A stretch of 57,238 nucleotides of DNA from positions 1 through 57,238 of the forward strand of contig JAIXVB010000067.1 in NCBI GenBank assembly GCA_027483245.1, written 5' to 3'. The notes under the pieces are model-generated. The model saw only the letters and a program-made list of their open reading frames with translations. It searched no databases and was not told the origin of the DNA. Each line of letters opens with the position of its first letter. The stretch's first letter is position 1. Position numbers and translations under genes: made by a program. This document shows positions 14,630 through 57,238 of the stretch, in pieces. The stretch comes from Verrucomicrobiaceae bacterium. GTDB lineage: Bacteria; Verrucomicrobiota; Verrucomicrobiia; Verrucomicrobiales; Verrucomicrobiaceae.

Positions 14630-15589
14630 ATGATTGTTGACCCTGATTTCGTCACTCACTGGAAAACGAAAGCCCTGGCCAATGCCATCGGTGGCATGGG
14701 GCCCGCGCTGCAGGCCATGCTGCTGCTCTGGGGCCACTGTCAGGCACGGAAGGCCTGGCAGTTTCAGCTCACCCCGCTCAGGCTGGCAGGCATCTGCGGC
14801 TTTGAGGGGCGCGCCCAGGTGCTGTGGGATGCCATGATGGAGCTGCCACTCATTCAGCCAGTGCCAGGCGAGTTAGGATGGTATGAGGTGCATCAATGGG
14901 CGGAGAAAAACGGGCAGTTGATCCGCAACTGGGCGAACAATTACGGCGGTCAATGGAGCCCAAAAGGCGGACCCCCCAAGGGCGAACCCAAGGGCGAACC
15001 CAAAGGCGAACCCAAGGGCGAACCCAAGGGCGAACCCAAGGGCGAACCCAAGGGCGAACCCAAGGGCGAACCGATAGGATATGATAGGAAAGGAGAGGAT
15101 AGAATCAGAACCCCCAAAACCCCCAAGGGGGCACTGGATTTAGAATTTCCTGCTCAGTGGAGCCAAGCTCGGCAGGAGACCATGCAGCGCTGGATTGCCT
15201 ACAAGGCCGAATGTCGCAAACGTTACAAGCCCTCAAGCTGGTCACTGCTCTGCACTCGCCTCTCCGTGTTGGCGGACAATGAGCTGGACGCCTGTGTCAA
15301 TGAGTCAATCAGCCAGGGCTGGCAGGGCTTGTTTCCAGAGAGGTTCGCTGGATCGACCACCAGCCCAGTTTTCCCGCAAAAAAAAGAAAGGGGCGGCGGC
15401 GGGTTCTTTGAGCCGGAGTTGACGCCTCGAGCTGAGATCGAGCATCCGGCCCCAAAGGGCTATGAGGCGGCGTGGGCTGAGATGTTTGACATCCCGTGTC
15501 CGCCCTGGGCTGGCATGATGCCGGAGCACCAGCAGCGCATTCGCCAGAAATTGGATCTGAAAAAAGAAGGAGGCCCCGACCATGCGTGA
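14630..15589 (+). CDS. Phage replication initiator-like protein with internal iterons
   Basis: The 319-aa protein has an N-terminal winged-helix-like domain (residues 1-110), a low-complexity linker of eight PKGE repeats (116-147), a helical C-terminal domain (160-240) and a linker with KKERGGGG. It lies directly before the DnaB-type helicase, the position of lambda O or DnaD-like initiators. The linker DNA is a run of 12-bp iterons followed by a purine/AT-rich patch, so this gene probably contains the origin. The last codons carry the helicase Shine-Dalgarno AGGAGG. Initiator assignment rests on context and layout. Confidence 0.65.
   Translation: MIVDPDFVTHWKTKALANAIGGMGPALQAMLLLWGHCQARKAWQFQLTPLRLAGICGFEGRAQVLWDAMMELPLIQPVPGELGWYEVHQWAEKNGQLIRNWANNYGGQWSPKGGPPKGEPKGEPKGEPKGEPKGEPKGEPKGEPKGEPIGYDRKGEDRIRTPKTPKGALDLEFPAQWSQARQETMQRWIAYKAECRKRYKPSSWSLLCTRLSVLADNELDACVNESISQGWQGLFPERFAGSTTSPVFPQKKERGGGGFFEPELTPRAEIEHPAPKGYEAAWAEMFDIPCPPWAGMMPEHQQRIRQKLDLKKEGGPDHA
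14975..15110 (+). repeat. Eight 12-bp tandem iterons plus AT/purine-rich tract: candidate phage origin
   Basis: The unit CCCAAGGGCGAA is repeated eight times without gaps from 14975 to 15070, with a single base change in unit 3 (AAAGGC) and a degenerate unit just before. It is followed by 15071-15110, rich in GATAGGA/AGGA words and low in C, suited to strand opening. Iterons within the initiator gene beside the helicase match the lambda origin plan. Confidence 0.6.
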
Positions 15590-44925: not shown

Positions 44926-44972
44926 GGATTGAAAATCCCCGTGTCGGCGGTTCGATTCCGTCCCGAGCCACC
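44926..44972 (+). other. attR core (47-bp direct repeat with attL)
   Basis: Identical to 2848-2894. It is a tRNA-Phe 3' half without the 5' half, so it cannot make a tRNA. Right of it the chromosomal sequence resumes with the original end, CCACCA. Confidence 0.95.
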
Positions 44973-44993
44973 ACTTCAATTTGAAGTGGTTTT
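44971..44993 (+). terminator. Original tRNA-Phe terminator, stranded at attR
   Basis: CCACTTCAA (44971-44979) pairs with TTGAAGTGG (44981-44989) and is followed by TTTT. It directly follows the tRNA 3' end sequence. It now lies 42 kb from the functional tRNA. Confidence 0.85.
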
Positions 44994-45860
44994 GAGCGTT
45001 GATTATCAACGTTTTACGTGGCGAAAATGGCAAACCACACCCGCCTTCCGCAGCTTATTCCGCAAAACCTCCGCAGTTTCCTCCGCATTTCACACCCGTT
45101 TGCAATGATTGCATTGTTTGCATTTTTGGGTGTGTCACCTGGAAAATCGAAGATCGCCTGAGCAAGTGCTGCTTCACCAAGAAAGCATGAACTTGCAGTC
45201 ATTGAAGGCATCTCAGCTTTAGGCTCAAGATCAGCCCGAGCAAGCTTGGCTCAGATTCTTTCTTCGCCGCACGGGTCCGTTTTTCCACAGGCTAGCTTGT
45301 TCCCTCCATTGCATCTGGCCGAGCTACGTCATGCAGCAATGAGTAAAGATAACGATCGCATGTCTGCGACCTCATTTGATTCGGCGTTTCTGAACTGCCA
45401 GCCCATCGCCATTGACTGGATGGCTTCCCCAAGATCTTCGCGCTCAGCCTCGTCAGTAGTAACGTCTCTGCGAGATTTGAGCTCGGCGATTTGGTTGAGG
45501 ACAGACTCTATTTTTGAAACCTCTCCCCTGCCCTGACTTTTGAGGGACTGTTTGTTCCAAGCCCTCGGCTGGGGTGGTGCGTCCATGACTGCAACTGACA
45601 TCGAGAGAGTATCAAGCGGGGCGGTTATGTGTCCATCTGGGCTGCGGTCGAATTTTCGGCACGCAAGGGTCTTTCATTCCCAAATACGTCCACCAAAGAA
45701 GCTGGCGAAATTTTCATCGCGTAACGCTTGTCGTGGTTCAACGGCAACTCATGCGGCATAAAGGAGCGCGGTTGGGGCAGTCCAGCGGTCCAGTCGAGGT
45801 TACTCCACTTTTTAGACGGCTTCATACTCCCCCCACGATACACTCAAACGGCACATGTGG
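44994..45860. other. Scarred intergenic zone right of attR
   Basis: No intact gene is convincing. It contains a palindrome CGTTGAT-T-ATCAACG (44997-45011), a 44-codon frame at about 45029-45163 (MANHTRLPQLIPQ start) that may be a gene stub, and two minus-strand fragments (next entry). Composition shifts along it, which fits a patchwork of past insertions at this tRNA. Confidence 0.5.
45329..45843 (-). pseudogene. Two out-of-frame minus-strand fragments, likely a decayed gene
   Basis: Frame 45625-45843 (72 aa; contains RSFMPHELPLNHDKRYAMKI) and frame 45329-45601 (90 aa; contains a helical KIESVLNQIAELKSRRD) read in the same direction in different frames, 23 bases apart. Both look protein-like, so a frameshifted gene is the simplest explanation. 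Family not recognised. Confidence 0.35.
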
Positions 45861-45954
45861 GAAGGCCACGGACTCCCGTGGCTCTGCTGCCTTTTTGGGT
45901 TGTTCAATTGATACTGCCTAACGGGAAGTGGGCGTCGCAAGAGGTTTGATCCTC
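45861..45954 (+). repeat. 94-bp direct repeat, copy 1
   Basis: Matches 47433-47526 over all 94 bases with six mismatches and no gaps. It starts with a perfect hairpin, GCCACGG-ACTC-CCGTGGC, and a downstream CTTTTT that resembles a terminator. It sits directly before the truncated pol III alpha gene. Confidence 0.9.
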
Positions 45955-46326
45955 GGATGCACCCTCACCACTCCTTCTCTTGATCGACACTCACGGGTCG
46001 CCTGGAGCAGCTCCTGCCCCATTGCCGAACTGCACCGCTACCATGGCCAACGCGTCACCGTCTGCGGCCTCATCATCGTCAGCCGCCACCACATGCAGCA
46101 AAACGGCCAGCCCATGAAGTTCATCTCCATCTGCGACTACAGCGGCATCGTCGAGTGCGAGATCTTCGCCGCCGCCTACCGCCTCTATGGCCTCAACACC
46201 GTCCGCTACCCCGTGGTCCAGATCACCGGTGAGGTGAAACCCTTCGACAATCAACAAGGCTACACCCTCGAGGTCTTGCGTGTGGAGAAAGCCCGAGTGA
46301 AAACTCCGCCAGCATTCATCCCATGA
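45955..46326 (+). pseudogene. 3' remnant of a DNA polymerase III alpha (DnaE-type) gene
   Basis: The frame encodes the C-terminal OB-fold part of bacterial pol III alpha: LHRYHGQRVTVCGLIIVSR, then FISICDYSGIVECEIF and a final VVQITGEVKPFDN. All catalytic parts are missing. The open frame reaches back to 45928 inside the 94-bp repeat, so the repeat replaced the upstream part. Its stop overlaps the GIY-YIG gene by ATGA. The original may have been an error-prone DnaE2-type polymerase, judged only from this end. Confidence 0.7.
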
Positions 46327-47126
46327 GCGAGGAAATCACGCGTGCCGCCTCACCTCGGCAGCTCAAGCTCTTCCATTTGGAAAACCCGCTCACGTTGCGT
46401 TTCGGGAGCGACTTCTTTCGCTCATTGCCCGAAGGCCCTGGCGTCTATTTTTTTCACGGCATCGATGACCGCCTTCTCTACATCGGGCAATCTTCAAACC
46501 TCCGTGCCCGGCTAGGCAGTTACCGGCACGTTGATCAAACCCGGCACCCTCGACGCACACTGCGGCTCGTGGCCCGGATCACCCGCATCGAGTGGAAAGA
46601 GTGCTCCTCGGCCACCGAGGCCGTCGAGTCGGAGCGGACACTCCTTCTGGAGCACCGACCGCCCTTCAACCGCGCCGGCGTCTGGAAAGGCGAACCCTGG
46701 TGGCTGGCCATGGAGATCGAAACGAGCCGCCTGACGCTCCGACTCCAGCGGGAGGCCACGCCTGGAAGTCTCGGCCCGCTGCCGCCAGGATCCCGGCATG
46801 CACTGAGCACCGTCGTTCGTGCCTTGCTCCGCATTACCCACCCCACCTGGCGTTTGGCTGACTTCCCCTGCGGCCTCATGGCCTCCGCCCTGCCGCTGGA
46901 ATGCCGTCTTCAGCTGCCTTCGCCCACGACCTTTGTCCAAGCGCTCACCTCCGCACTCGCAGGTGAATTGTCGGCCCTTCTGGCCGCGTTGCAGGCTCTT
47001 CCTCCGCCCGCCACTCTCACCGAGCAAGCGTTCTGGCAGGAAGAACGGGAACGGCTTGAGAAACTGCAGGCTTCCAGTTCTTCGATCGTGCCCTCGGTTT
47101 CCACACGTGAAGGACCAAAGAGCTAA
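46323..47126 (+). CDS. GIY-YIG endonuclease-domain protein
   Basis: The 267-aa protein has a GIY-YIG domain with GVYFFHG (Tyr42), LLYIGQSSNLRARL (YIG 53-55, Arg61) and a catalytic Glu in EAVESERTLLLEHRPPFNR. The C-terminal half is Leu/Ala-rich and helical. Relatives include UvrC-like and pol III epsilon-linked nucleases involved in repair. It is coupled by ATGA to the pol III alpha remnant, so the pair once formed a repair-type operon. Confidence 0.8.
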   Translation: MSEEITRAASPRQLKLFHLENPLTLRFGSDFFRSLPEGPGVYFFHGIDDRLLYIGQSSNLRARLGSYRHVDQTRHPRRTLRLVARITRIEWKECSSATEAVESERTLLLEHRPPFNRAGVWKGEPWWLAMEIETSRLTLRLQREATPGSLGPLPPGSRHALSTVVRALLRITHPTWRLADFPCGLMASALPLECRLQLPSPTTFVQALTSALAGELSALLAALQALPPPATLTEQAFWQEERERLEKLQASSSSIVPSVSTREGPKS

Positions 47127-47174
47127 GGAGTGAAGCAACCTTTCATGAGGTGCCTTTTGTCTGCGTCAACCGAC

Positions 47175-47432
47175 ATGCCCGACTCCATCGCCATCCTCAG
47201 TGATATTCAGGGCAACCTTCCCGCCCTTCTCGCGGTGCGAGCAGACATGGAGAGCCAGGGCATCGAGAAGGTTCTCTGCCTTGGCGATGTTGTGGGCTAT
47301 GGCGCTCAACCGGCGGAATGCATGGAACGGTTGCGTTCCAAAAACTGGGTGACTCTCCTGCCCGGCAACCACGATGCTTATGTCGCCTCCGACATCGATC
47401 CCCCGGGCCTCTCGCCGGAAACGCGGCAAAGA
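47175..47432 (+). pseudogene. 5' fragment of a calcineurin-like metallophosphoesterase
   Basis: The frame from ATG 47175 gives IAILSDIQGNLPALLAV, then CLGDVVGYGAQP and LPGNHDAYV, the first three metal-binding motifs (D-x-H position here DIQGN, GD, GNHD) of YfcE/calcineurin-like phosphoesterases. In the usual family the first motif is DxHGN; here it is DIQGN, so one metal ligand is changed. It breaks off after SPETRQ, where the second 94-bp repeat begins. The His motifs near the C terminus are lost. Confidence 0.75.
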
Positions 47433-47526
47433 GAAAGCCACAGACTCCCGTGGCTCTGCTGCCTTTTTGGGTTGCTCGATTGATACTGCCTAACGGGAAG
47501 TGTGCGTCGCAAGAGATTTGATCCTC
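47433..47526 (+). repeat. 94-bp direct repeat, copy 2
   Basis: Second copy (six mismatches to 45861-45954). The stem of its hairpin has one A-C mismatch. It is at the exact junction between the truncated phosphoesterase and the hsdR fragment. Confidence 0.9.
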
Positions 47527-47810
47527 TTCTCCAAGCGTTCACCGAGTTCTTTGAACTTGGGATCACCGGCGTGCTTCTTGAGGCGGGCGATGAGTTTGAT
47601 TTCCACTTCGCGGGCCTTCTTGCTTGGGTTGGCATCTTTGAGGATGCTGTCGAGCACATCAGCATCCAGCACGAGGGCTTCGATGTCATCGCGCACGGCT
47701 TCGACGTGGACCTTCTCGTTGATGAGTTCGATGGTCTTCGCGCCGAGGCGATGCCAGAGCAGCTTGCCGTTCCCGCCCACGGGCTTCACGGATTCATAGG
47801 TCAGGCATTA
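47527..47810 (-). pseudogene. Fragment of a type I restriction R-subunit (HsdR C-terminal part)
   Basis: The frame reads GKLLWHRLGAKTIELINEKV then VRDDIEALVLDADVLDSIL, the helical region near the end of HsdR proteins. It stops upstream at a TAA (47808-47810) and is cut at its C-terminal side by the 94-bp repeat. No motor or nuclease domain and no hsdM/hsdS are nearby, so it is a scrap from an older restriction locus. Confidence 0.7.
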
Positions 47811-47823
47811 TCAATATTTGACT

Positions 47824-50619
47824 TCACCACGCCTGTGAAAGCAGTTCCTTTACACTGATCGGGTTCAAAACGGATGTGCAGGTCTCCCAGTCGGCATCTT
47901 CCACCTTGCTGTATTTCACATCGAAGGGGTTCCGGGTGGCCGTAGTTCGGTCAATGAGCTGGTTCGCGGCCTGCTCGTCTTTCAGCGCGACTTGCACCCA
48001 TACATCCTCAAGCGTGTCGGGAATCTGACCAAAGAGGCTGTGGATGGATTCAAGCCGGTCTGCTAGGACTTGATGAACGCGGTCTTCGACTGAGTCGCGG
48101 TAGCGTAGGTTGGCGATCCAGATTTCACTTCGTGCTTGGCCAATGCGTTGGATACGACCTTTGCGCTGCTCCAGGCGAGTCGGGTTCCAGGGAAGGTCAA
48201 TATTGATGAGCGTGCCGAGGCGCTGGAGATTCAGACCTTCAGAAGCAGCATCGGTTCCAAGCAATAGCTTGAGATCGCCAGCTCGGACCCGTGCCTTGAG
48301 CACGTTTCGGTCACAACGCTGGAACTTGCCGTCACGCCAGAACCCTGAGCGATTGCTGCCTGCGTAAAGGCCTATATCCATGCCCGCAAACTCGGCGCGC
48401 TTTGCCATTTCATCTCCAACCCAACGAACCGTATCGTAATACTGTGAGAAAAGGATACACCCAAGACCAAGCCAGTCCTGTGTGGCACTTGGATGGGTGC
48501 CACGGAGATATCTAATTAACGCTTCAAGCTTTGGATCATTGGTCCCACCTTGCTTCAATAGACCAAGACACAGACGCAGAGACTTCAATTCGGCATCGGT
48601 AAAGTTTTTGAAGGTGCTGGCACCTTGCGGAGGCCGACCGACTTGCGCTGGCTCTTCTTCATCAGCGTCGTCGTCATCTTCGTCGTCGAGCGTTTCAGGG
48701 TCCTCCCCCAGAAGCTTGCGGATAGTCCTGCGCCCAGCCTCCATTGAACTGCCCATACGGCGCAGAAGGAGCGTTTTGAAGAATCCTGCACCCTTTACCC
48801 TCTGTTGGAGCAGCAAACAAAAAGCCTCGGCTTCGAGATAAGCGTCGCGCAGGTAGCCACCAAGCACGAGTGCGCCCTCATGTTCCTCGCCGAATAGCTT
48901 CACCGTCACTTTAGGCAAGAAGTAGCTTCCGGTGGCAGGATTGATTGTTGCTTCGAGGTAGCCGCGTGTGCGGCGCACGATGCAGCGCAGCAGCGGGTTA
49001 AAACGCTCACCGTAGTGAGGCAGCAGCGCGTTCTCAAGCTGAACGCGGCGGATGGCTGGGGACATATTCGCCAAGCTCTCTGGCTTGAACTGCCAGGATG
49101 TGTCCGCTGCCTCAAGGTTGTTGCGAATGCGAGCGAAGGCTTGATCTTCAAACCGGGACGGCAGTGGATCGCGGACGTATTGCCAGCCATCGCGCACGTC
49201 AGCGGTCGGCACGACCTCATCACCCATTGCAATCGCTAAACAATGACTGGGGCGATACCACGGGCTTGTCTGAGTCCATCCGCCCAGCACGCCTTCATTA
49301 CCGTGAGACAGTATGTGCAGGAGATCCCATGCCTCCACGGGATGAAGCTGCACCGGCGTAGCCGTGGCCAGCAGCATGCTCTTCGTCTTCGGGCCGATTT
49401 GACGAAGAAATGCCATGAGCTTGTTCGGCTCAGCCCTCTCGTCGATCTCATCTGCATCAGCGTCCACTTTGGGGACTTTACGGCGGCGGGCGCGATGTGA
49501 CTCGTCCACGATGACACAGGTATAGCTGCGGCTTAGAAGCTGGTTCACTGCTTCAGATAACCCACGCACCACTAACCCTTGAGAAACCAGACCGATGCGA
49601 CGCGGGCATTTGCCGAGCGACTTGGCTCCTTCCGACGGGTATTCTAGCTCGTTCTCATCCACCCAGGCTTTTCCATTCCAGCGGGCGGAAGGCAAAAGCA
49701 GGAGTTCCATCAGTTCATCCTGCCACTGCTGAAGAAGTGGTTTCGGTGCAAGGACGAGAATTGGCCCACCATCGGGATCATCAATCGCCATCAGCAGCGC
49801 AGCCATGGCGAGCTGGATTGTCTTCCCCAGGCCCACTTGGTCAGCCAATACGAGGCGCGCACCGCCGAGCCGGTGCCGCTCCAGTGCGAGCTGAGCAAAA
49901 TACTTCTGATGCGGCCACAAACCCTGTTCGCGACGATAAACGGGAGTCTCCACAGCGACGGCAGCCGCAGCGGCGGTGGGATCAGCGGTAGATTTCAGTT
50001 CTTCCGGCTCAATGACCCTGCGCCCGATGATTCGCTGCACGTCTTGGGCAATGAAGGGACAGCAGGCGAGGTCCACGGCCCGCGCATCATTCCACAGCGC
50101 ATCAAACTCTTCCTGCACCCAGGCGATGGTTTCGGGCGCATCGTCCTCCCACAGCAGCTCATAGTTCACTTTCCAGGCGGAGGCGCTTTCGTTCACGCTG
50201 CCGAGGAAAGCCGTGGATGTGCCATCAGCTCTCCTCACGACTCCAGCTTTGCCATGGATCAAACCAAAGGCGGAATCAGGCAGCACACGCACTTCGATCT
50301 TCTTACTCATCAGCGCTTCGTAAAGGGCGCGGTAACGTGGCAGAGCGAAGGGCGGCGCTTCTTCGGGCAAGCCAGCGCACCAACTCCGGCGCAGTGCGGC
50401 CTGGGCAGCGGCGGCAGTCGTGAGGTCTTGCGGATCGAGGTCCGAATTGCAAATGATCCGCACGGGACCAGTCACTTTCGCCAGAGCTTCACCCGCTACT
50501 TCAAAGAGACTGGAGCGGAAATAGCCTGCGATACGGTCATACGATGCTGCTCCCTCAAGGCGCTGGTTGAGCACTGCACGGTCGAGTCGATTACGACGGC
50601 TGGAATGACGCTGGAGCAT
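47824..50619 (-). CDS. Phospholipase-D/SNF2 fusion helicase of the defence operon
   Basis: The 931-aa protein has an N-terminal PLD-type domain with HGK at 122-124 and GSVNES at 140-145, then a SNF2-like motor: Walker A ADQVGLGKT (259-267), DESH box (372-375), ATATPV, and late motifs TDAASEGLNLQ and EQRKGRIQRIGQ. A Glu/Asp-rich stretch lies at about 640-660. It would translocate on DNA and may cleave it. Start ATG 50619 abuts the stop of the methyltransferase gene (TAA-ATG), so translation is coupled. Last gene of the operon. Confidence 0.9.
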   Translation of the reverse strand: MLQRHSSRRNRLDRAVLNQRLEGAASYDRIAGYFRSSLFEVAGEALAKVTGPVRIICNSDLDPQDLTTAAAAQAALRRSWCAGLPEEAPPFALPRYRALYEALMSKKIEVRVLPDSAFGLIHGKAGVVRRADGTSTAFLGSVNESASAWKVNYELLWEDDAPETIAWVQEEFDALWNDARAVDLACCPFIAQDVQRIIGRRVIEPEELKSTADPTAAAAAVAVETPVYRREQGLWPHQKYFAQLALERHRLGGARLVLADQVGLGKTIQLAMAALLMAIDDPDGGPILVLAPKPLLQQWQDELMELLLLPSARWNGKAWVDENELEYPSEGAKSLGKCPRRIGLVSQGLVVRGLSEAVNQLLSRSYTCVIVDESHRARRRKVPKVDADADEIDERAEPNKLMAFLRQIGPKTKSMLLATATPVQLHPVEAWDLLHILSHGNEGVLGGWTQTSPWYRPSHCLAIAMGDEVVPTADVRDGWQYVRDPLPSRFEDQAFARIRNNLEAADTSWQFKPESLANMSPAIRRVQLENALLPHYGERFNPLLRCIVRRTRGYLEATINPATGSYFLPKVTVKLFGEEHEGALVLGGYLRDAYLEAEAFCLLLQQRVKGAGFFKTLLLRRMGSSMEAGRRTIRKLLGEDPETLDDEDDDDADEEEPAQVGRPPQGASTFKNFTDAELKSLRLCLGLLKQGGTNDPKLEALIRYLRGTHPSATQDWLGLGCILFSQYYDTVRWVGDEMAKRAEFAGMDIGLYAGSNRSGFWRDGKFQRCDRNVLKARVRAGDLKLLLGTDAASEGLNLQRLGTLINIDLPWNPTRLEQRKGRIQRIGQARSEIWIANLRYRDSVEDRVHQVLADRLESIHSLFGQIPDTLEDVWVQVALKDEQAANQLIDRTTATRNPFDVKYSKVEDADWETCTSVLNPISVKELLSQAW

Positions 50620-53600
50620 TTAGGCGTGATCGTTGCGGAGGCGTCCGGCGAGGATACGAGCGGCTTCGCTGTCGGCCCCCCATTCGGCCATGCCTTGGGC
50701 GTTCCCGAGCGCGGCCAGCCATTCCAGCAGGCCGATGAAACCTTCACGCTGGCCCCAGTAGCCTTGGCCGAAGGTGTCGCGCAGGTATTGGCGGCCCGGT
50801 TCGGGGCTATTATCAGCGGCGGTGGTTTCACGGATGGCGAAGAGCAGGTGACGCAGGGCGGAGGCGGCAAAGGGATGCGGTGCTCCGGCTCCCACACGGC
50901 CACGGCGGGCAGGCATGGCTCCCGGGCTGCTGCCACTGAGCGGTGCCAGACCAGTGGCGGCGAAACCGCTCGGCGTGAGCATTCGCGCACCGTTGGCTTT
51001 GTCCGTCTTCAGTAGCGGGCTGATGTCGGTAACGCCGAAGCCACGGGCCAGCTCTTCATACATGCCTTTGCGGCGCTCCCCGCGACTCTCGATATCGAGG
51101 GCGCGGAGGTAATAGCGTTCCACCAACGAAAGATCACGCCAACTGCTGTCTAGCCCTCGCGGCACAAGGAAATCACAGGCGATACCGAGGGCGCGCTCAA
51201 TGACGGCTTCGAAGTCGCTCTTCTGGTTCTTGGCACGCACGGCGAAGACCTCATGCTCCACGTCCCGCCCGTCCAGGTTGCCGTATTGGGTCAGCACTTT
51301 CAGCGCAGCGGCGTAAGCGGCTAGCTGGTAGTCGGCATCGTTGAAGTTCGGCTCGCCATCTTCATCCAGCGCCTGCATGGACTCGATCTGGCGCTTCACC
51401 TCATCTTCGACCAGTGGATAGACTTCATCTAGGAAACCAGGCTCGTTGGCGGCTCGTTTCCGCAGCACGAGGCAGACGGTGCCCTGCACGTAGTTGCCCT
51501 TCTTGATGCCCACTGCCTCCGTCTCGGTGCTGATGGTCCAAGCAGCGGTGGCAGCGAGTCCAGCGGCCCAGAGGATCATGCCCAGGTCCGCCCACACCGC
51601 CGGGTCTTGATGGGTGAACATGACCATTTGCAGGCCATTGTCCGGCATGTGGCGGGCCAGGTTTCGGTAAACTTCCACCATGCTGCGGCGGAAGTCCTCC
51701 CCATCTCCACGCACGGCGAGTTCAGCGCGGGCATCCGGGGTCCATTCGGGAAAGGTGCGGTTCAATTGCTTGTCATACCATGCGAGGAAAAAGTCGGCGA
51801 GTTCGTGATAGTTCACCGCGTCTGCGTAAGGCGGATCGGTGATCCAAAGGTCGCAGACTTCACGGAGGTCACGAGCATCGGAGGTGACGATGCGTCCATG
51901 GCTGCCGAAGGCGTCATCGTTGTTGCCGTTCAGGATTGAAAAAGTCTCCTCCAGCTTGGTGAAGCCTCGTCCTGCATAGTTGAAGTGGCAGTTGAGCGCT
52001 TGATTGTAGAAGACCTGATTTCCCTTTTCATTGCCCTTGTGAAACATCCAAGCGCTTAGCCGCGCATCCCAATCCGCCATCCGACCAAGTCCGAGCAAAC
52101 ACGCAGATTTGGCGGCATTGGTTGAGGCAAGGCGCGAAGCGATTTCCGCTAACATGCCATGCGTCAACAATTGCCGTGGCGTGAAGAGGTGATGCCAATG
52201 GGTCCAACCGCGCTCTCGAATTGGCTGCTCTGTATTGTAGCCTGTTACAATTGGCCTTGAAGGAATGAAGCCCTCATGTTGCCATTCAGAAAAGCGTTCA
52301 CGCAAGAGTTCCTGGACTTTGCTTTCGCGTTCGAGGTCGGCTGGCTCTGGTGCCGCATAGCGGCGGATTTCCTGCGTGCGGCCATCAGGGAGGATCACTG
52401 TCTTCACCCAGCGGATGCAGTAGAGACGCTCCTGAAATACATCGCTGGGACGTGGCAGCACATCTTCGTTGGTCCAGCGCCGAAGTCCTTCAGCGCCACG
52501 GAGAGCTTCGACCGACCATGAACGATTGGCGTCGAATGGGTCCATGACGCGGCTGTTTTCCAATGTGCCTCCCTTTCCAAGCTTGTAGGTGTTTAACTCG
52601 GCATCGGAGATCATTACGATCTCCGGCTGGAGCCGGTCTGAACCGGGAACTCGGTGCCAGTGGACAGCGACTTTGGACTTCTCACCGATCAGCCAACTCC
52701 CAGCCAACGGAATGAAGTAATCACAGCCCTCTGGTTTCACCTCCACGCAGTAGAGATAAGCATCTGCGCGTTCGCCCGCTGCATTGTGCTCGATGCCCCA
52801 TTCCGCGATCTGACGATTGGCTGCGGCTAGGGCGCTTCGCTGCACGCGCATGACTTTCTCCTGCACTTCTTCACCTCCGCCGAGAAGATTGAAGCTCGCC
52901 CAAGTGAGCAGGCACGCGACGGGGTTGAGATCAGAGGCAAAGGCATCACAACCGATCCGAGCCGCCTCAAAGGGAATGGAACCACCACCACAGAAACTAT
53001 CCCCGACGCGCGGCGTATGGCCGAAGGTGCGCTGGCCCAACTGCCCGACCAGTTCCTGAAGGGAGGTAGCGGTGGTGCCGAGGTGGGCATTGATCTCTGC
53101 CCAGGCTTCAGGTCCTGGCCCTCCAAAATTCTCTGGGCGAGCGCAGTGGGTAATGCGCTCAGCATAAGTGAGTGCATCGAAACTCTCACGGTCAGGCACA
53201 GGCCGACGACGTTGGTCGTCGAGGGCCTTCCGTCCGACCGCATCAAGCGATTCCCAGATGCGAGCGCAGACGGCTTCTTTCTCCTCTCCAGAAAGGCCAC
53301 GCTGAAAACCTCGTGCTGAGAAGAACTCATCCTGAATTGCCGATGAGGCCGCTTCTCTCCAAGCACCCACTGGGATCTCACCGTCTTGGCGCTGCCAAAC
53401 GCCATCATCATCCATGGTGAGGATCTTGAGGAAGATCTCGCGGTCCTTCTTCGGGTCATCAGATGCGGGCATCAACATGCCCAGGATGGAGGCGCGGACG
53501 AGGATGAGTGGCTTCCGCCCCCACCATTTGCCAAGACGAGTCAAGGTCTGCCCATTGTTGGCCTTGCGCTCCTTATAAGACTCCGCCGAGAGGCGGGCGA

Positions 53601-53631
53601 TGGGGAACTGGGTCTCGATGAAAGCGGGCAT
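50620..53631 (-). CDS. DUF1156-type DNA adenine methyltransferase
   Basis: The 1003-aa protein opens with the DUF1156 signature (FPIARLSAESYKERK and LGKWWGRKPL). It has a SAM-binding motif DSFCGGGSIPFEAARIG near 208-224 and the catalytic DPPYAD near 598. The C-terminal third is helical and specific. It is likely the modification enzyme that marks self DNA in a methylation-based defence. DUF1156 methylases often carry a Zn ribbon; I see no clear one here. Confidence 0.9.
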   Translation of the reverse strand: MPAFIETQFPIARLSAESYKERKANNGQTLTRLGKWWGRKPLILVRASILGMLMPASDDPKKDREIFLKILTMDDDGVWQRQDGEIPVGAWREAASSAIQDEFFSARGFQRGLSGEEKEAVCARIWESLDAVGRKALDDQRRRPVPDRESFDALTYAERITHCARPENFGGPGPEAWAEINAHLGTTATSLQELVGQLGQRTFGHTPRVGDSFCGGGSIPFEAARIGCDAFASDLNPVACLLTWASFNLLGGGEEVQEKVMRVQRSALAAANRQIAEWGIEHNAAGERADAYLYCVEVKPEGCDYFIPLAGSWLIGEKSKVAVHWHRVPGSDRLQPEIVMISDAELNTYKLGKGGTLENSRVMDPFDANRSWSVEALRGAEGLRRWTNEDVLPRPSDVFQERLYCIRWVKTVILPDGRTQEIRRYAAPEPADLERESKVQELLRERFSEWQHEGFIPSRPIVTGYNTEQPIRERGWTHWHHLFTPRQLLTHGMLAEIASRLASTNAAKSACLLGLGRMADWDARLSAWMFHKGNEKGNQVFYNQALNCHFNYAGRGFTKLEETFSILNGNNDDAFGSHGRIVTSDARDLREVCDLWITDPPYADAVNYHELADFFLAWYDKQLNRTFPEWTPDARAELAVRGDGEDFRRSMVEVYRNLARHMPDNGLQMVMFTHQDPAVWADLGMILWAAGLAATAAWTISTETEAVGIKKGNYVQGTVCLVLRKRAANEPGFLDEVYPLVEDEVKRQIESMQALDEDGEPNFNDADYQLAAYAAALKVLTQYGNLDGRDVEHEVFAVRAKNQKSDFEAVIERALGIACDFLVPRGLDSSWRDLSLVERYYLRALDIESRGERRKGMYEELARGFGVTDISPLLKTDKANGARMLTPSGFAATGLAPLSGSSPGAMPARRGRVGAGAPHPFAASALRHLLFAIRETTAADNSPEPGRQYLRDTFGQGYWGQREGFIGLLEWLAALGNAQGMAEWGADSEAARILAGRLRNDHA

Positions 53632-53646
53632 GGGAAAAGCAGGAAC

Positions 53647-54273
53647 TTAGAGGGAAAGGGAAAGCTGGGAATGCCCGAGCAACTCGCGGCGGGCCTTGGG
53701 GGAAAGACCTTCGCCTTTGACGAAGGGATTGTCGGCGATGGCGGCACGGAGCGCCTTGCGCCAGCCGAGGCCTTTCTGCATGGCCTGCCCGGTGTTGGCC
53801 ACGGTCATGGTGTAGAGCCACCAGCGCTCCTCGGGGGCGAGAGCCTCCCAATTCCGCAGAGCATTCGGGATGTCATCTGGTGGCGCGTCTTCAACTGCCC
53901 AGCACAGGATGCAGAGTTCCTTCCCGAGAGAAGGATGAACAGGGACCGGTTTGCCTGGGTTCTTGGGGAACTTGGCAATCGAAAGGCCATTGGCACGCAG
54001 ACGGCGGTTTGCTTCCTCCCAGAATGCGGGGGCCAGCGCGAGCCAGCGGGTGCGGTCGATAACGACCCGCAGGGCGGGATCGCTGGGGGAAGGCGTGTCA
54101 GTGCTGCGCTCGCCGAGTGAATTGAGGTCATTGCCCCGGTGCTCCGTGATGCAGATCAGGTCAGCACCGCCGCTGCCTCTGGGAACCGACACCAGAAACC
54201 CATGACGCGCCTCATCTGGCAGGAAGCCAAGACCGACGATCTTGCGGGTAGAAGCTGATGACGCGCGTCTCAT
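53647..54273 (-). CDS. DUF3780-family protein of the defence operon
   Basis: The 208-aa protein has the DUF3780 pattern: GLGFLPDEARHGFLVSVPRG at the N terminus and WWLYTMTVANTGQ, GLGWRKALRAAI in the C-terminal half. Function is unknown; it is found with DUF499 and DUF1156 genes. It overlaps the DUF499 gene end by ATGA and is 15 nt before the methyltransferase start. Confidence 0.88.
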   Translation of the reverse strand: MRRASSASTRKIVGLGFLPDEARHGFLVSVPRGSGGADLICITEHRGNDLNSLGERSTDTPSPSDPALRVVIDRTRWLALAPAFWEEANRRLRANGLSIAKFPKNPGKPVPVHPSLGKELCILCWAVEDAPPDDIPNALRNWEALAPEERWWLYTMTVANTGQAMQKGLGWRKALRAAIADNPFVKGEGLSPKARRELLGHSQLSLSL

Positions 54274-57238
54274 GCGGCTTGAATGACTTTCGCGAGATTG
54301 AAGGGTTGATTGGTGGCCTTCAGCCAGTCCAGCAAGAGTTGCCCGGTGGGGAAGTGCAGGGAGCCAACCGTCATGCGCAAACTACCACCGCCGACGATGT
54401 CCTGAAGTTTCTCAGCCACGGCCTTCACAGCGGCGGCATCGTAGCCAGCTCCGAGTGTGCCGGAGTATTCCACGTTTTGAAGGCGGTCACTGCTCTCGGC
54501 TGTCAGGCTGATGTCGAAGGCTGTAACACCAGCGGCATTTTCCAAACGCTGCATCCATTCCCAAACGGCTGTGGAATCATCCAGCTTCGTCTGCTGAATC
54601 CAGCGTGCAGGGAGAGTGGGATCAAGGCTGCGCTCCTCCTGGCCCTTCTGAGGAATCGGAATGCGGATCGTTTCAGAGTTCAGGTCGTAGGCTGTAGCCA
54701 CGGCCATGGCGCAGACGATGCGGCAACCCGTCGGAACGCGGAACGGTCCGTCATACGTCGCTGCACCAGCGCTGGTGGGTGACGAACCATCTGTGGTGTA
54801 GCGGATGGCGATGCCATTGGCCTTTGGCAAGGCCAGCAACTCAACCTCGTAATGGTCGCCGCGATTGTGAAGATGGTATTTGAGGCGGATTTTAGCCGTC
54901 CATTCCTTCACAGCACTCACGCGAATGAGATCAGCCGGATCAAAGGCGAGGAAGCGGTAACGCAGGCCGGTGGCCTCAAAGCGTGCGGGCGTGGGCACGG
55001 GCGTGGAGGCACTTGTAGGGTCACTGTCACCAGTCTCATAAACCACGGAGGGAGCGTGCAGCGGCTCGATCTTCAGGAAGGTGTGGCCATCACCATCCTC
55101 CTGCATGGAAAGTTCACGAATGGACACCTCCGGCACTGGCGGTGGGAAGGGGCCGCGACGGATGTGATTGCCCTCTTCACGCCAAAGCCCACGGTGGAGG
55201 CATGAGGCTTTGAGATCATCCAGCGCGGATAGCTTGTGCAGCGGCCAGTTGGTATTCACCGCAGCGGCCCGCTTGAAGTCGGACCAGAGGACTGTCTTGG
55301 TTTCCGCAGAGCCGAAGAGGCGGGCCTCCGCACGGGTGCGGAAGCTGTCATCGTCGATCTTGGTGGTGAACTTCTGCGCCCCTTCGAGGGTTTTACGAAT
55401 AGTGGCCTCGCCGCTCTGATTCCCCGCGAAGGCCAGGTCCGTGCCCGTGCTCCGCAGGGCGGCATTGATGGAAGGATAGACAATCTGATCGAAGGCTTCC
55501 TTCAGCGCGGCGGTGAACTGAAGACCCACGCGGTCGCGCAGAGAATCGAGGGCACGCCATTGGGGATCATCCGAGGGTGTATTCTCCGAGCGGAGTTCGT
55601 CTTCGATGCTCTGCAAAGCACGGGTCTGCCGTGCAGAGTCGAGCACCTTCTGGAAGGTGTCGCGTGAACCCGTGAGGAAGAGGACGCGGTTCTTGTATTG
55701 CTGCTGGCCCCACCAAGCCTGCCAGTCGGCAGAGATGGGGAGCTGATTCGCCTGCCCGCCGGGCCGCACGATGATGAGCGTGGTCTTCTCCTGCTCGACC
55801 TGAACTTCATCCGGTGGTGGCAGCACTTTGACAGACTGATAGCAATCACGGAGAGACGCTGAGAAGTAGTCCTCCAAATGCTCACGCAACATGCGGTCCA
55901 CCGTCTCTGAGTGAAGCGAAAGCGCGGTGGCTCGGAGCTTGGCGGCAAGGTTTTGCTGGTTCTTGAAGAAGAGGCGTCCGTCAGCGGAGTTGTGCAGATA
56001 CCAGGCGCGTGTTGCTAGCTTGTCGAGGACGTTAGCCTTGAAGGTGGAGAGGTCACGACCTGGGCGCTGGAGGCAGTCCACGAGCTGATATTCCCGCAGT
56101 CCGTGAATGGCACCTGGAGTCGTGGAAAGGGATGCCACGAGAATGAGTCGGGCAGCATCGGAGGCGTCGGAGTTTCCATTGGCGGCGTCGATTTGCTCCA
56201 CCTCAGCATCCCCACTGTGGGCGATGTCATGGGCGATTGCCTCGCTGAGGGAGGGATTGATCGTGCGAATCTCAGAAGCGATCTCGTCGAGGTTCAAATC
56301 AAGATCGTAAGGATGGATGAGGTCGATGGCCTCAGCGCGGTTGGATTTCCAAAGATTGGAAACCACCATCTGCATGAGTCGGATGACGCCGCGAGTCTGC
56401 TGGAAGCCGTCGTTCTCCTTGAACTTGCCCACGAGTTCCCGAAGGTCCGGGTGGAAGGGATAAGCATCACCGACACGCGTAAAGAGTGCTTCAGGTGAAG
56501 TGGTGGTGAGGTTCATCTTGCCCGCCTCACGCAGTGCCTCGCGATAAGCCGCCGCAACCTTTTGAATCTCAGCCTCCGAGGCGACCTTCTCGAACAAGCG
56601 CTTCCGCAGGATGTGATACAACTCATCGCCGTTTGGATTCACCGGAGTGATCGGGACGGCGATACGACGTGACTCGGAGGTGATACCTTGAACTGCGCGA
56701 TTGAATGCAGCCTCAAGATTGGACTGCCCGATGCTGAAGTTTGTCCCTGCAAGATCCGAGAGCACAAGGCAGACATTTTCCATCTCGGCGACTGCCACGA
56801 AGAGGTTTGCCAGCGCCGTCGTCGTGACGACACCGAGGTCTGCATTTCCAACAGGAACTGCGACCGCGTATTCCAGATAGGGCGGCAGTTCGTCGAGGAA
56901 TAGAATGAGAGGCTCAGCGCCGAGCATCTGTTTCCAAGCCTCCGGGCCTGGAGCACTAAGCAAAGGCGAGACATACTTCGTGAACTGGTCCCCCTTGCCC
57001 AACTGCTCAGCGATGGAACCCCAGATGCCTCCCGGCGCATCCGTGCTGCGTCCGTTGAACCCGACCACCTGGCATTTGCCGAGCGTGGGAGCTGGGTTTT
57101 TGTCCGCCAGCACCTTTTTCCGCAAAGCTGGATCACGCGCCAATAACCCGAGAGCAATCATGCTGTGCGTCTTACCGCCACCCATCGCTTGGGAAAGCAG
57201 GAAAACCGATGATCCTGCTCCCGAACCACCGAGGTGAC
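54270..57238 (-). CDS. DUF499 P-loop ATPase of the defence operon (5' end beyond window)
   Basis: At least 989 residues are visible. Walker A is in LLSQAMGGGKTHSM near the window edge, the hallmark of DUF499 proteins, followed by LILFLDELPPYL (Walker B). The C-terminal part contains a FN3/chitobiase-C-like module with IRYTTDGSSPTSAG. It is likely the large ATPase/DNA-sensing subunit, similar in role to BrxC/PglY (inference). The frame is open to base 57238, so the start lies outside. Confidence 0.9.
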   Translation of the reverse strand, partial: HLGGSGAGSSVFLLSQAMGGGKTHSMIALGLLARDPALRKKVLADKNPAPTLGKCQVVGFNGRSTDAPGGIWGSIAEQLGKGDQFTKYVSPLLSAPGPEAWKQMLGAEPLILFLDELPPYLEYAVAVPVGNADLGVVTTTALANLFVAVAEMENVCLVLSDLAGTNFSIGQSNLEAAFNRAVQGITSESRRIAVPITPVNPNGDELYHILRKRLFEKVASEAEIQKVAAAYREALREAGKMNLTTTSPEALFTRVGDAYPFHPDLRELVGKFKENDGFQQTRGVIRLMQMVVSNLWKSNRAEAIDLIHPYDLDLNLDEIASEIRTINPSLSEAIAHDIAHSGDAEVEQIDAANGNSDASDAARLILVASLSTTPGAIHGLREYQLVDCLQRPGRDLSTFKANVLDKLATRAWYLHNSADGRLFFKNQQNLAAKLRATALSLHSETVDRMLREHLEDYFSASLRDCYQSVKVLPPPDEVQVEQEKTTLIIVRPGGQANQLPISADWQAWWGQQQYKNRVLFLTGSRDTFQKVLDSARQTRALQSIEDELRSENTPSDDPQWRALDSLRDRVGLQFTAALKEAFDQIVYPSINAALRSTGTDLAFAGNQSGEATIRKTLEGAQKFTTKIDDDSFRTRAEARLFGSAETKTVLWSDFKRAAAVNTNWPLHKLSALDDLKASCLHRGLWREEGNHIRRGPFPPPVPEVSIRELSMQEDGDGHTFLKIEPLHAPSVVYETGDSDPTSASTPVPTPARFEATGLRYRFLAFDPADLIRVSAVKEWTAKIRLKYHLHNRGDHYEVELLALPKANGIAIRYTTDGSSPTSAGAATYDGPFRVPTGCRIVCAMAVATAYDLNSETIRIPIPQKGQEERSLDPTLPARWIQQTKLDDSTAVWEWMQRLENAAGVTAFDISLTAESSDRLQNVEYSGTLGAGYDAAAVKAVAEKLQDIVGGGSLRMTVGSLHFPTGQLLLDWLKATNQPFNLAKVIQAA

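Follow-up and report, generated by a model that had tools for sequence, protein, structure and literature searches.

Comparison with congeners places two copies of a 94-bp repeat at deletion junctions in a Verrucomicrobiaceae genome

Results

Comparison with related genomes confirmed that two copies of a 94-bp direct repeat, R1 and R2, occupy two deletion junctions in the window, that is, the whole stretch of 57,238 nucleotides analyzed here. We assign them to deletion junctions because the orthologous loci in congeners are intact and free of the repeat. We see about an even chance that one short and discrete non-autonomous insertion (a MITE-like element or an IS remnant), with adjacent deletions, gave rise to both R1 and R2.

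The two copies are identical at 88 of 94 positions, with six mismatches and no gaps, and the coordinates given for them by a first-pass annotation of this DNA proved exact (Table 1). Their start-to-start distance is 1572 bp, they differ at positions 4 (G/A), 10 (G/A), 43 (T/C), 46 (A/G), 71 (G/T) and 84 (G/A), and the longest exact run that they share is at most 32 bp. A 31-nt core of the repeat matched only R1 and R2 in the window and, with three mismatches allowed, had no match in 100 dinucleotide shuffles, so their similarity lies far above chance. R1 and R2 end identically at both sides and all four of their flanks differ, which argues that the 94 bp behave as one complete unit. On inspection, the aligned copies showed no terminal inverted repeats, with complementary bases at 5 of 14 terminal positions, and in the folds of both copies the ends are not paired with each other.

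The hairpin and T run that had been described at the start of each copy were found in part: the 7-bp hairpin is perfect in R1, its counterpart in R2 (47437-47454) contains one A-C mismatch, and the five T lie 9 nt away. An intrinsic terminator was rejected, as the main hairpin ends 9 nt before the run of five T and only a 5-bp stem abuts that run. A terminator scan found 3 candidates against 2.1 expected in shuffles, which is chance frequency. The alternative that the copies represent a terminator conserved in a single gene family is likewise unsupported. As RNA, the repeat folds weakly better than shuffled sequences (z of -1.7 and -1.0). No Rfam model matched over R1 or R2, and a known RNA family was rejected on this ground. 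The two scars have no evident function today.

Table 1. Repeat copies, gene remnants and neighboring features, in positions of the window
Feature	Position	Strand	Evidence or remark
Prophage attR, copy of the tRNA-Phe 3' part	44926..44976	.	51-bp repeat with 2848-2898
o72, small ORF, left boundary of deletion 1	45625..45843	-	tblastn to L151, 54% identity over 67 aa, E 4e-18
R1 (scar 1)	45861..45954	.	flanked by the o72 upstream region and by the polymerase remnant
Left-end hairpin of R1, 7 bp, GCCACGG-ACTC-CCGTGGC	45865..45882	.	sequence and folding
Right-end hairpin of R1, 4 bp, GAGG-TTTGAT-CCTC	45941..45954	.	single change breaks it in R2
Remnant of fused Y-family/DnaE2-type polymerase, residues 1281-1402 of ~1405 (OB-fold end)	45949..46326	+	81% identity to L151; PF01336
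GIY-YIG nuclease-domain protein, intact, 267 aa, same SOS operon	46323..47126	+	PF01541; 65-81% identity in five relatives
Calcineurin-like phosphoesterase remnant, first 83 residues	47175..47424	+	PF00149; 63-73% to L149/L150
R2 (scar 2)	47433..47526	.	flanked by the remnants of phosphoesterase and hsdR
Type I restriction hsdR remnant, residues 791-881 of 1003 (91 internal residues)	47526..47799	-	92% aa identity to L153 hsdR

The three edges of gene homology that could be mapped each lie 0-9 bp from a repeat end. Homology to the DnaE-type polymerase starts at 45949-45953 (at the DNA level from 45950 and at the protein level from 45949), 1-5 bases inside the end of R1. Phosphoesterase homology stops at 47424, nine bases short of R2, and hsdR homology starts at 47525-47526, at the last base of R2; the earlier claim that R2 joins a truncated phosphoesterase to a truncated hsdR was thus borne out. 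The left edge of R1 is placed less exactly, as the region upstream of o72 is too diverged. In relatives, the loci run uninterrupted across all three gene edges and nothing similar to the 94-bp repeat was found in them, which upholds the association with breakpoints that had been proposed for checking in relatives. Flanks on either side of each copy derive from different genes.

We searched segment 45955-47432 in 56 related genomes and examined longer stretches at five loci. In congeners the SOS operon is intact and comprises an SRAP peptidase, an S24/UmuD-like peptidase, a fused Y-family polymerase and DnaE, and a GIY-YIG nuclease. At locus L151 the order is SRAP peptidase (PF02586), S24 peptidase (PF00717), a 1405-aa polymerase fusion and the GIY-YIG protein, and the fusion combines Y-family (IMS, IMS_C) and DnaE-type (PHP, DNA_pol3_alpha, finger, HHH_6) polymerase domains. 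The o72 homologue (L151 6618-6824) is oriented divergently to SRAP, the first gene of the operon, and lies immediately upstream of it. A phosphoesterase follows the GIY-YIG gene at L149 and L150, and hsdR lies in the opposite, convergent orientation ~2.5 kb past the GIY-YIG gene at L153, the one relative of five in which the hsdR neighborhood was seen. The remnants in the window retain this ancestral order and orientation, which argues for deletions in situ and against an imported cassette or a random chimera.

Judged on L151, R1 stands in for roughly 5.2 kb of the operon, and the polymerase remnant represents the last ~124 residues of the fusion. The truncation previously noted at R1 is therefore real by comparison with relatives, and the gene, which had been called pol III alpha, is a fused Y-family polymerase/DnaE2-type gene. 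R2 stands in for the remaining phosphoesterase gene, a further stretch and the 3' part of hsdR. Further copies of the SOS operon are present in this genome (G000): an intact one on contig C258, a near-identical one on C173 that is cut off by the contig end, and a decayed 3' remnant on C333. The C258 copy is a diverged paralogue of the operon in the window, with 67% DNA identity across the 236 bp that the two share, and C173 hardly differs from C258 wherever the two can be compared. Because of these further copies on C258, C173 and C333, the copy in the window would be free to decay.

The union of a Y-family polymerase (IMS) with a full DnaE-type polymerase in one protein of ~1405-1417 aa was seen at L151 1014-5231 (-), L153 4785-9038 (+) and L211 739-4986 (+). 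The fusion lies inside the SRAP/S24/GIY-YIG SOS operon and occurs in one or more copies in several genomes of the genus; our literature search on a DnaE2 polymerase fusion in Verrucomicrobia found no paper.

We found no third copy of the repeat in the genome at E up to 1; matches with E above 2 were mere scraps of 14-28 nt, and partial matches to the repeat ends did not rise above chance. The first-pass annotation had made its proposal of a mobile element depend on further copies in the genome, and the draft genome yielded none. The assembly is a draft of 758 contigs with a completeness of ~92%, and repeated elements tend to be lost from short-read assemblies; because such a draft may hide copies, the genome-wide negative is weakened and not final. 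Searches of 190 relatives (blastn), of 384 genomes of the class, and of 96 genomes with a covariance model built from R1 and R2 all returned chance-level scraps only. No exact 30-mer of the repeat was found in GTDB contigs; a 19-mer had four matches there, and the aligned ones agree with the repeat over 19-20 nt or patchily. Plasmids and phages gave nothing or chance-level matches, one viral match falls within a coding region of an inovirus-like contig, and viral contigs yielded no other core of the repeat. For the 94-bp unit we found neither a transposase nor an autonomous partner.

A 16-nt core of the repeat, GCCTAACGGGAAGTG, is enriched among a subgroup of congeners; in one of them (G019) it forms part of a dispersed intergenic repeat. 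The congener repeats bearing GCCTAACGGGAAGTG were rejected as members of the same family, since their likeness to the 94-bp unit ends after ~17-25 nt, which is too short for us to call it common descent. The G019 repeat, with its GGCCTAACRGGAAGTGTGG core, has ~94 matches on contigs C3 and C5 (for example at L143 and L092), where it is clustered over >100 kb and often ends in GTTAGGC; no integron integrase was found in G019.

On the left, the window contains a 42-kb prophage integrated in tRNA-Phe(GAA) (2820-2894), delimited by 51-bp att cores with one mismatch (2848-2898 and 44926-44976). These att cores are unrelated to the 94-bp repeat, and a prophage att site was rejected as its identity. 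Within the prophage, 14951-15094 is an array of 12-bp units (CCCAAGGGCGAA), a coding-like low-complexity repeat. To the right of R1 and R2 lies a defence-type operon (47824-57185, minus strand) encoding a PLD helicase, a DUF1156 methyltransferase, DUF3780 and DUF499, which correspond to PADLOC models PDLC02193, PDLC02189, PDLC02191 and PDLC02192. The hsdR remnant meets the 3' end of this operon at 47800 in a third junction, either a deletion or an insertion, which lacks the 94-bp repeat.

Discussion

The reading that we favor is that a non-autonomous element would have inserted at two places of an SOS-mutagenesis/restriction island that was redundant and decaying, with loss of adjoining DNA associated with each insertion. 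The first deletion would have removed ~5 kb, from the o72 promoter region to polymerase codon 1281, and with it SRAP, the S24 peptidase and ~91% of the polymerase fusion; the second would have removed the remaining phosphoesterase, what lay past it, and the 3' part of hsdR. Insertion, with adjacent deletion afterwards or at the same time, would be the most economical mechanism, with recombination between repeat copies as a possible second-ranked route. Deletions centered on IS copies without target duplications, arising from adjacent deletion or IS-IS recombination, are known in bacteria (PMC11708052). In the present case, a target duplication is not expected to survive, because deletion put different genes at the two flanks. 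We infer the mobility, the enzyme involved and the order of events, and a mobile nature of the repeat is plausible but unproven. Of the earlier proposal that a mobile element mediated the deletions, the location of both copies at deletion junctions stands, with intact, repeat-free loci in congeners, and a mobile family is unsupported.

None of the known element types corresponds fully to the repeat. The adjacent deletions of IS150 and IS5 without target duplication (PMC11708052) resemble our case in that a repeated element sits exactly at the center of the deletion and the two flanks come from different parts of one locus; in contrast to those IS, the element here is 94 bp long, non-coding and devoid of inverted repeats, with no autonomous copy known. 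Like prokaryotic MITEs (PMC10969869), the repeat is short, non-coding and discrete and has an internal palindrome, and some MITE families are reported at low copy numbers of 1-22 (PMC10969869). Unlike MITEs, it lacks terminal inverted repeats and no related IS was found; a MITE would be expected in multiple scattered copies alongside an autonomous IS related to it, and the draft assembly yielded two copies, both in the window. A short repeat bearing a palindrome also recalls REP elements (PMC3733652), of which GTAG repeats have been reported in the PVC superphylum (PMC3733652), but the unit is 94 bp instead of 20-40 bp, has two copies instead of many and lies at gene junctions, and we found no GTAG or CGTC tag beside its stem.

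Several other origins were weighed against a non-autonomous insertion. Break repair or replication template switching might have filled each deletion with one and the same short DNA, captured without any dedicated mobile element; a small RNA that had been copied, or a piece of a plasmid or phage since lost, could, for example, have been its source. The lack of a family elsewhere and of inverted repeats, the deletions at both sites, and the repeat-free junction at 47800, which indicates that deletions occur here without the repeat, all fit such filler, but the same length and ends at two independent junctions are not expected unless the donor was a discrete molecule. The repeat's weakly better RNA structure than shuffles also counts against it, as does our failure to find a Ku gene in the assembly, on which ground Ku-dependent joining was rejected; we regard filler as rather unlikely. 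We consider improbable a more specific form of capture, in which the lineage repeatedly took up a discrete nucleic acid of 94 nt, lacking inverted repeats, at breaks or deletions and so scarred each repair junction; a small RNA after reverse transcription or a mini-element as yet undescribed would be candidates. Recombination could instead have acted on pre-existing dispersed repeats, four ancestral copies, one ahead of SRAP and one each within the polymerase, phosphoesterase and hsdR genes, having recombined pairwise to leave two hybrids. This is consistent with the direct orientation of R1 and R2 and with the frequent origin of such scars in IS-IS recombination (PMC11708052), but it requires four insertions in one island with none elsewhere in the genome, and not one copy was found in the relatives searched; we judge it unlikely.

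An artefact in which a shared repeat joined contigs of different origin is suggested by the 758-contig draft and by joins that fall at the repeat. Against this, the joined pieces make up one ancestral locus in the correct order and strand, R1 and R2 differ at six positions with no exact run >32 bp, and no other contig was found to carry the polymerase half that is missing, so that an assembly error is very unlikely. Least credible, and nearly negligible in our view, is a pair of integron attC sites bounding a 1.5-kb cassette. The repeat does contain GCCTAAC, the usual first box of integron attC sites, which matches exactly the R'' box at attC-like sites of congeners. In the genus, 14 of 48 genomes encode an integron integrase that scores above the family cut-off. 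Taking as attC an R'' (RYYYAAC) and an R' (GTTRRRY) box that pair across the folded site, we found no GTTRRRY partner within reach of the repeat and no attC-like fold in the window, and the segment between R1 and R2 is native operon sequence in ancestral order. The script used does recover sites of attC type (GCCTAAC...GTTAGGC) that lie close to integron integrases of congeners, at L189 6498-6621 and L192 9420-9483. G000 has an integrase-like gene at a contig edge; its score falls short of the family cut-off, and the contig, 7.6 kb long, yielded no attC-like site.

At present, R1 and R2 are chiefly well-documented deletion scars. If the repeat is mobile, its sharply mapped junctions would make the deletion mechanism testable, and a mobile unit that brings deletions with it would be a small, traceable agent of the decay of SOS/restriction islands in a poorly studied group.
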